From positions 1 through 41,975 of the forward strand of contig JALVXB010000018.1 of assembly GCA_027023025.1 (NCBI GenBank): DNA of 41,975 nucleotides. Direction: 5' to 3'. The position numbers and the translations under genes were made by a program. Below, one piece after another: positions 13,819-15,259 of the stretch. The notes beneath the pieces are model-generated. The model was not told the DNA's origin, searched no databases, and saw only the letters and a list, made by a program, of their open reading frames with translations. Each line of letters begins with the position of its first letter. Position 1 is the stretch's first letter. The stretch is from Caldisericaceae bacterium. GTDB lineage: Bacteria > Caldisericota > Caldisericia > Caldisericales > Caldisericaceae.

Positions 13819-13883
13819 GTAGTTTTGCTTCCATCTGTAAAAAATCCGTGCGTAGAGAGTTGACTCTATTTACGAACAAATGT

Positions 13884-13940
13884 TTGCAATTTTATAAATT
13901 TCTGCTATAGTGTCCATAGAAATTTACTATAGTTAACTAT
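13884..13940 (+). promoter_or_regulatory. Promoter and palindromes of the split sigma operon
   Basis: TTGCAA (13884-13889) and TATAGT (13906-13911), spacer 16 bp. Downstream are two overlapping palindromes, ACTATAGT (13926-13933) and ATAGTTAACTAT (13929-13940), directly before the ribosome site. They lie in the predicted 5' leader and could bind a repressor. Confidence 0.55.
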
Positions 13941-13952
13941 GAGGAGGTAGGT

Positions 13953-14252
13953 ATGAAAAAAGAAGACGCAAAAAGAGAATTGTTTTTATACGCACATAGA
14001 GACGCAGTTTTTAAACTTGCAGTCCTTTACGCAAGAAAGTTTTTCGTGGAGGTGGACGACATCTTCCAGGAAGGAATGTTAGGCGTGCTTACCGCATTTG
14101 ATTCTTACGGAAAAACAAAAAATGCTCCCGAACTCGACAGGATTGCAAAAGCGCTTGCGAACAGATTTATGTACCGATATGTAAAAGGTGAAGTAAAGGA
14201 GAGGACGACATGTGTGCTAAAAAGCGAAAGTACATTAGAAGGCCGCGTATAG
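13953..14252 (+). CDS. Sigma-factor region 2-like protein (first half of a split sigma)
   Basis: A 99-residue protein whose residues about 12-78 resemble sigma-70 region 2. The best landmark is DDIFQEGMLGVLTAFDSY, equivalent to the region 2.2 DLIQEGxLGLxxAxxxF motif that contacts the RNA polymerase beta-prime coiled coil. It is followed by a helix (LDRIAKALANRFMYRYVKGE) where region 2.3-2.4 (-10 recognition) would lie. There is no region 4; the protein ends shortly after. The start has GAGGAGG. It overlaps the next gene by 43 bp in a different frame, and that gene encodes a region 4-like protein. Together they resemble a two-subunit sigma factor such as B. subtilis RsoA/SigO. A frameshift in a single ECF gene is the alternative. 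Confidence 0.7.
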   Translation: MKKEDAKRELFLYAHRDAVFKLAVLYARKFFVEVDDIFQEGMLGVLTAFDSYGKTKNAPELDRIAKALANRFMYRYVKGEVKERTTCVLKSESTLEGRV

Positions 14253-14527
14253 AAAAAGATGCACTGAAAAATGTGCCTGCACGGAAGGCGGTAAAAATCG
14301 TCGTGCACACCTGCATAAAGTTCATAAAGGCAGACGAGCGGCGCATTATACAGGCATTCTGCTTTGAGAATATGACGCAGGAAGAAGTTGCTAAAAAAGA
14401 GAAAATCACGGCAAAGTACGCAAAACGGAAACTGCGCATTGCAAAAGTGCACCTCAGGGATACAATTGTAAAGTGTATAGGTATGGAAAAGGTAAAAGAA
14501 CTACTGAAAGGAATGAGGTATAGTTAA
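14210..14527 (+). CDS. Sigma-factor region 4-like protein (second half of a split sigma)
   Basis: A 105-residue basic protein. After a positively charged N-terminus (CAKKRKYIRRPRIEKD), residues about 42-95 match the region 4 helix-turn-helix of sigma factors: DERRIIQAFCFENMTQEEVAKK followed by ITAKYAKRKLRIAKVHLRDTI, equivalent to the usual Glu-Ile-Ala ... Val-Lys ... Arg-Ala-Arg-Leu pattern that binds the -35 box. It has its own ATG with GGAGAGG just upstream, inside the first gene, and an in-frame stop (TGA, 14189-14191) shortly before, so it is built as a separate gene. It ends exactly at the next ATG (TAA then ATG at 14528). Confidence 0.7.
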   Translation: MCAKKRKYIRRPRIEKDALKNVPARKAVKIVVHTCIKFIKADERRIIQAFCFENMTQEEVAKKEKITAKYAKRKLRIAKVHLRDTIVKCIGMEKVKELLKGMRYS

Positions 14528-15259
14528 ATGGGTTTTATTCTAGCACACCTGCACGCAGGCGAAGAAGTGCTGAAAGTGGGTTCGTACAGGGCAAAAGACA
14601 GGCGGCTCTACAACTTCGGGGCGATGGGCCCCGACTTTATTTTTATGGAAAGTGTGGATTGGGAAAAGCGGCTGCACGACGAAAGGGCAGCAGAACTTGC
14701 CGCGTTTTTGCTGGAGAATGCAGACGAAGAAACGATGGACTTTGCAATTGGGTACGCAACGCACATATACACTGATGTCGAGATGTATCCCGTTTCTATG
14801 CGCCTTGCAGGAAATAACTTTGACGCGTATTTGAAAATAGAAGTAACCTTCGATGTGCTTCTTGCAAAAAGCGTCTATAAAGCGGACATCTCGGATATAC
14901 GCCTTGCGTCAAAAATTTATGTGGGGAAAACGCTCAAAGAGGGCGTGTGCAACCTGCTCGAGCGGGGTATAAAAGAAGTTTACGGAAGCGGGGCACTCGA
15001 AAAGGATAGAATAAACAGGGCGTATAAAAAGTTCGTAAGGTACGCGCGTCTTTTGGACTTTACGAAAAGCAGGCAGTTCAAACTGACGAAAAACCTGTTG
15101 CTAAAAGGCGCGGAAACACTTTTCCGTAGAAATTTTACCACATTTTTTTATCCGCTCAGCGTGGAAAGAAAGTACGAAGAAGTGTATCCTGAAGTTTACG
15201 AAAGCCTTGAGCGCGGCATCGAGCTGAGCAAGTCGCATTTGGAAAAATACCTTCTGTAG
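14528..15259 (+). CDS. Zn-dependent phospholipase C-like protein
   Basis: A 243-residue protein of the Zn_dep_PLPC (S1/P1-like helical) group. Visible metal-ligand candidates are His7 and His9 (FILAHLHAG), Asp36 in GAMGPDF, His50, and His79/Asp83 in GYATHIYTDVEMYP; this Gly-Pro-Asp and His-x3-Asp arrangement is typical of the family. There is no signal peptide, so it appears cytoplasmic. Family members include clostridial phospholipases, but many short cytoplasmic homologues have no known substrate. It follows the sigma region 4 gene with no gap, so it is co-translated with the sigma pair and may be part of the same response. Confidence 0.7.
   Translation: MGFILAHLHAGEEVLKVGSYRAKDRRLYNFGAMGPDFIFMESVDWEKRLHDERAAELAAFLLENADEETMDFAIGYATHIYTDVEMYPVSMRLAGNNFDAYLKIEVTFDVLLAKSVYKADISDIRLASKIYVGKTLKEGVCNLLERGIKEVYGSGALEKDRINRAYKKFVRYARLLDFTKSRQFKLTKNLLLKGAETLFRRNFTTFFYPLSVERKYEEVYPEVYESLERGIELSKSHLEKYLL

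Follow-up and report, generated by a model that had tools for sequence, protein, structure and literature searches.

Do two short overlapping genes of a Caldisericaceae bacterium encode the two halves of a single sigma factor? The window, i.e. the whole stretch of 41,975 nt that was analyzed, comes from a little studied group of mostly heat-loving bacteria. A first-pass annotation had noticed a region 2.2-like motif in one gene and a region 4-like helix-turn-helix in the next, and had proposed a divergent two-subunit sigma factor.

Sigma domains 2 and 4 in separate genes

The locus comprises the following elements:

13941–13947: Shine-Dalgarno sequence GAGGAGG of ORF1, a strong ribosome site
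13953–14252, + strand: domain-2 subunit gene (ORF1), 99 aa, ATG start, sigma regions 2.1–2.4
14055–14099, + strand: region 2.2 core-binding motif DDIFQEGMLGVLTAF, with invariant D, G and L in alignment A1
14195–14201, + strand: ribosome-binding site AAAGGAG of ORF2, 8 nt 5′ of the ATG
14210–14252, + strand: out-of-frame overlap of ORF1 and ORF2, 43 nt
14210–14527, + strand: domain-4 subunit gene (ORF2), 105 aa, ATG start, helix-turn-helix at residues 41–83
14528–15259, + strand: third gene, weak match to the zinc-dependent phospholipase C family, start abutting the domain-4 stop

In the window sequence ORF1 and ORF2 lie in different reading frames. The frame of ORF2 is closed by a stop at 14189–14191, 6 codons upstream, and holds no earlier start; the in-frame stop before the second gene and the separate ribosome sites of the two genes thus agree with the earlier description. 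Overlap and gene order suggest that the two genes are co-expressed. Since the start of the third gene directly abuts the stop of ORF2, all three probably form one operon. The product of this third gene matched Pfam Zn_dep_PLPC with an E-value of 2.3e-5, which is under the curated cut-off; no homologue was found in 20 related genomes, and the gene was perhaps acquired. The downstream gene differs between loci, being phospholipase-like in the window and of the PHP-domain type in Caldisericum exile, and it therefore gives no pointer to the regulon.

In order to identify the domains, both proteins and their families were searched with profile HMMs, a check that the first-pass annotation had suggested, and both matched. 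ORF1 hits Pfam Sigma70_r2 (E 5.5e-5) and ORF2 hits Sigma70_r4 (E 3.5e-4), with single-sequence scores slightly below the curated cut-offs. Sigma70_r2 matches 8 of the 11 domain-2 members in Caldisericaceae, the best Sigma70_r4 E-value among the domain-4 members is 9e-10, and NCBIfam TIGR02937 matches 10/11 domain-2 and 6/10 domain-4 members. The domain-2 alignment spans regions 2.1 to 2.4 and contains the 2.2 motif D-D-L-F-Q-E-G as well as a later N-R-x-M-Y helix in which N and R are invariant. AlphaFold models reached a pLDDT of 89.9 for ORF1 and 72.8 for ORF2 (82–86 in the core). Foldseek matched ORF1 to sigma domain 2 structures (SigE N-terminal domain, sigma-28, sigma A) and ORF2 to sigma domain 4 (SigE region 4 on −35 DNA and several ECF domain 4 structures), each with a probability of 1.00; E-values reach only about 0.01–0.1 because both domains are small. 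We base the domain assignment on the family-wide matches, TIGR02937 and structure: profile and fold confirm ORF1 as a complete sigma domain 2 and ORF2 as a sigma domain 4. The region 2.2-like motif and the region 4-like helix-turn-helix seen before were thus correctly recognized.

Conservation of the split in Caldisericaceae and a sister family

A profile search of 54 genomes of the phylum yielded 13 strong domain-2 sites (above 60 bits), every one of them in Caldisericaceae, a family that includes C. exile. At 12 of the 13 places a domain-4 gene follows directly 3′; the remaining domain-2 gene (G005) is cut by a contig end. This gives 12 pairs in 9 genomes, several of them with one gene broken. 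We distinguish type A loci (the window, G005, G007, G008:C10, G011, G013:C42, G015 and G017) from type B loci (two near-identical copies in G004 and one each at G008:C83, G012 and G013:C37); the window genome is G000, and G007, G011 and G015 make up the C. exile clade. Domain 2 precedes domain 4 at all pairs, which is the order proposed earlier, and the number of fused genes is zero. Close relatives hold no continuous gene here, so that the split is kept as expected. The trait of the sigma-70 superfamily that both regions lie in one polypeptide is absent, the genes being separate at all loci.

The junction between the two genes differs among genomes: they share 43 nt in the window, G007 and G015 have an overlap of 4 nt, that of G013 and G017 measures 14 nt and that of G004 38 nt, and in G011 domain 4 lies in the same frame past a stop. 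These differences rule out a local sequencing error as well as a shared frameshift signal. An indel joining both frames, which would have undone the earlier proposal, is unsupported, as many assemblies show the split with differing junctions. Both genes are under purifying selection with dN well below dS in relatives: dN/dS is about 0.17 (domain 2) and about 0.13 (domain 4) for G013/G017 and about 0.15 for domain 2 of G007/G015.

No fused homologue of comparable score was found in 386 genomes from 318 genera, where the remaining matches outside both families (the second is described below) all lie within longer sigma genes. A contig scan outside Caldisericaceae returned full-length sigma factors and nothing else. 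Domain 4 diverges so fast that a search for sequences close to ORF2 missed its family relatives, and these had to be sought with a profile. The absence of the split sigma from the genus-mate of the window genome (G001) is uninformative, its assembly being 77% complete and lacking the flanking genes too.

Two domain-2 genes (G008:C10 and G011) carry in-frame stops, and domain 4 is open in both. At G008:C10 (L003) and G011:C72 (L005) a TAG replaces the same Gln codon of DLFQEG in the 2.2 motif, and G008:C10 has a TGA in addition; outside these codons the domain-2 gene seems conserved, as does the domain-4 gene. These stops may stem from gene decay or from an error in assembly, or they may be read through. 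Among the type B copies several are decayed as well, and the system therefore appears dispensable in places and can be lost. The type B cassette of G004 is duplicated as a 605-bp unit with 95.9% identity (L071 8652–9256 and L072 9018–9622); the copies lie beside REP-like repeats, and no terminal inverted repeats were seen at them.

A sister family within this class, first seen as weak domain-2 matches, contributes 6 pairs in six genomes. Here a domain-2 gene of 110 aa precedes a domain-4 gene of 80 aa, and a ribosome site CAGGAGGA is present; most of the pairs overlap by the 4 nt ATGA, and in G040 a gap of 29 nt separates the genes. The domain-2 proteins of this family exceed the Pfam curated cut-off. 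Comparison of its domain-2 profile with that of Caldisericaceae by hhalign gave a probability of 96.8% (E 3e-10, 74 columns), and the domain-4 profiles showed weak similarity (E 3.6e-4, probability only 36.6%). In a cross control, domain-2 against domain-4 profiles gave no match. The simplest reading of these profiles would be one split ancestor common to both families. With 12 loci in Caldisericaceae and 6 in the sister family, the two-gene arrangement recurs at 18 loci in at least a dozen species and is therefore more than chance.

The promoter and a predicted LexA box

Upstream of ORF1 we found a promoter of the housekeeping type (TTGCAA, 16 nt, TGC-TATAGT) together with two putative regulatory sites:

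13873–13886, no strand assigned: predicted LexA (SOS) box CGAACAAATGTTTG, near-perfect, overlapping the −35 hexamer
13884–13889, + strand: putative −35-like hexamer TTGCAA as read from the sequence, 16 nt from the −10
13903–13911, + strand: extended −10-like element TGCTATAGT, with the first CTATAGT copy at 13905–13911
13926–13936, + strand: second CTATAGT copy, ACTATAGTTAA, putative private regulatory site

The LexA matrix was built from 12 lexA/dinB boxes of Caldisericaceae; boxes of the split-sigma operon did not enter it. With this matrix the site at 13873–13886 scores 20.2 bits, equal to the best training boxes, with a runner-up of 10.9 in the 42 kb; 0 of 100 shuffles contained a site as good. 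G005 has the identical CGAACAAATGTTTG 14-mer both at its orthologous promoter and upstream of a gene that we take, from its sequence, to be dinB, and CGAACATTTGTTTG lies upstream of lexA in the same genome. When the operon DNA of the window and G005 was compared, the promoter was the patch that aligned (63 bp, 77%). A lexA gene is present in 10 of the 12 genomes checked, including the window's own, and most of the lexA promoters in these genomes share the box.

In the C. exile clade there is no box at the −35; a palindrome, CGAAAATATTTTCG, lies just 3′ of the −10 (16.3 bits) and resembles the dinB box CGAAAATATGTTCG of G011. No LexA boxes were found in the promoters of G008, G013 and G017 or in any type B promoter. 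Control by LexA is therefore likely in two clades, which differ in the promoter position of the box, but it is not universal. The looser pattern CGAACNNNNGTTYG by itself was not significant in whole genomes, and a broader LexA pattern was swamped in G000 by a dispersed repeat. This repeat contains CGAAAAATTGTTCG in at least 14 copies (e.g. L156, L165, L174) with shared flanks such as GCCGAAAAGCGAAAAATTGTTCG; it is similar to a LexA box, yet it is a repeat family. Other sites of this kind were seen elsewhere: a LexA-like box, CGAACTTTTGTTCG, stands before a 102-aa gene about 1.3 kb from the type B cassette of G008:C83 (L092 1501–1514), and a palindrome, TTAACTATAGTTAA, lies about 200 bp 5′ of a gene that by eye resembles a tyrosine recombinase (L136 1501–1514, G001:C21).

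CTATAGT is present in every type A promoter of Caldisericaceae, with one mismatch in G015. As a pair, it is unique to this promoter in G000, G005, G008, G013 and G017, with no control matches. ACTATAGTTAA is confined to the promoter of this operon in the same five genomes and occurs once in the 1.66-Mb window genome. The two copies are 10 to 22 nt apart, start to start. Since the spacing varies, the pair fails as a −35/−10 pair of the split sigma itself and suggests a pair of operators rather than the hexamers of a promoter. The LexA-like palindrome of the C. exile clade occupies the expected place of the second copy. The final codons of the domain-4 gene (14519–14527) read TATAGTTAA and share 9 of 11 bases with the private element, possibly by chance. 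Three findings go beyond the first-pass annotation: the pairs of the sister family, the private ACTATAGTTAA element and the LexA box.

A probable two-subunit sigma factor and its relation to known systems

Profiles, folds and the conserved split support the divergent two-subunit sigma factor proposed at the outset, and from them we infer sigma activity. Given the gene structure, domain identity, conserved split and purifying selection, and the presence and conservation of the boxes, we consider it quite probable that the locus encodes an alternative sigma factor that is induced in the SOS response and works as an obligate pair. The domain-2 protein would bind the β′ coiled coil of RNA polymerase and read or melt the −10 element, and the domain-4 protein would bind the β flap and read the −35 element. 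In ordinary sigma factors a linker, region 3.2, connects the two domains; neither protein has it, so that both should be needed together, and translational coupling of the genes may keep the two proteins at near-equal amounts. In the window's lineage, LexA bound at the box over the −35 hexamer would hold the operon off until DNA damage releases it; ACTATAGTTAA in the start region probably serves the operon's own regulation, i.e. putative autoregulation. We regard a more far-reaching version as possible, with the odds slightly against it: a two-subunit sigma that is ancestral in Caldisericia and unrelated to SigO-RsoA, controlled by LexA through boxes at two positions according to clade, and acting as an AND gate for a DNA-damage regulon with a holoenzyme devoid of the region 3.2 linker.

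Lone sigma domains are able to act as polymerase-binding regulators, and T4 gp33, which clamps the tip of the flap much as sigma region 4 does, alone represses gp55-dependent transcription (PMC7892883). Both proteins could accordingly bind polymerase without starting transcription, blocking the coiled coil and blocking or re-aiming the flap, and so turn housekeeping transcription off during DNA damage. However, the domain-4 proteins match structures of sigma 4 on −35 DNA and their helix-turn-helix is still basic, and the helix of regions 2.3–2.4 with its invariant Asn-Arg is retained; a pure blocker needs neither, and we consider this unlikely. Slightly less probable still are independent regulators, with the domain-4 protein binding DNA as a conventional repressor or activator, whose target might be its own operon via ACTATAGTTAA, and the domain-2 protein as its polymerase adaptor or unrelated to it. 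A palindromic site dedicated to the operon would suit this arrangement, as would domain-4 genes that stay open where domain 2 is broken (G008, G011), but pairing and gene order are strict at 18 loci and the sole unpaired domain-4 fragment (G011:C159) sits at a contig edge.

Explanations by which the two genes are really one appear very improbable. An indel in an ordinary ECF sigma gene, broken or misassembled, would yield two short overlapping frames, and some copies of the family are decayed; assembly error and pseudogene formation are nevertheless rejected by junctions that vary across many assemblies, with a ribosome site for each gene, by dN well below dS and by the lack of any fused relative. 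That programmed frameshifting in the overlap produces a single fused sigma factor is just as hard to credit: the frames overlap in most genomes, but their relation varies (+1, +2, same frame past a stop, gap), one signal cannot serve all, and we rejected this candidate too. Searches of phages, plasmids and viral contigs gave no match, which disfavours a phage origin.

A two-subunit sigma factor at these loci would be a second natural two-part lineage, spread across two families, which suggests that a split sigma can be stable over long times and is no Bacillus oddity. Its minimal proteins (about 100 aa each) could be used to ask whether initiation depends on the sigma finger and on the linker between domains 2 and 4, and as small components of possibly heat-tolerant AND-gate circuits. 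In a phylum that has hardly been studied, the LexA boxes suggest a programme that responds to DNA damage.

The only bacterial sigma factor with true domains 2 and 4 on separate proteins that we found described in the open-access literature is SigO-RsoA (YvrI-YvrHa) of Bacillus subtilis, which has its own operon among its targets (PMC8103513; PMC10028694). There, too, sigma function is shared by two proteins, a precedent for the mechanism; the likeness is drawn from mechanism and not from kinship, and no family named RsoA or SigO was among the best-ranked profile-library matches of the domain-2 and domain-4 proteins. The Caldisericia loci share with this class separate, adjacent sigma 2 and sigma 4 genes at all loci. 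However, the sigma 4 protein of SigO-RsoA is large (22.5 kDa versus 9.0 kDa; PMC10141391), whereas both proteins of the window have about 11–12 kDa. Sigma 4 precedes sigma 2 in the yvrI-yvrHa operon, in contrast to domain 2 first at all Caldisericia loci, and SigO-RsoA answers acid stress, whereas the signal here is apparently DNA damage. Phage T4 likewise combines a sigma-2-like specificity factor, gp55, with a separate flap-binding protein, gp33, whose structure is unrelated to that of sigma region 4 and whose DNA contacts are limited to the backbone (PMC7892883). Since gp33 lacks the sigma 4 fold that ORF2 truly has, it is a looser analogue, and phage searches found no phage relatives of the split sigma proteins. 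ECF (group IV) sigma factors also consist of domains 2 and 4 without domain 3, but as one polypeptide with a linker, whereas the window has two genes with a combined length of 204 aa. For the predicted control, the closest parallel is offered by LexA-box sigma operons such as sigH-rshA of Corynebacterium glutamicum, in which a sigma gene likewise has a putative SOS box over its housekeeping promoter (PMC3489674); that system pairs a single-chain sigma with an anti-sigma factor, whereas the putative Caldisericaceae sigma consists of two chains.
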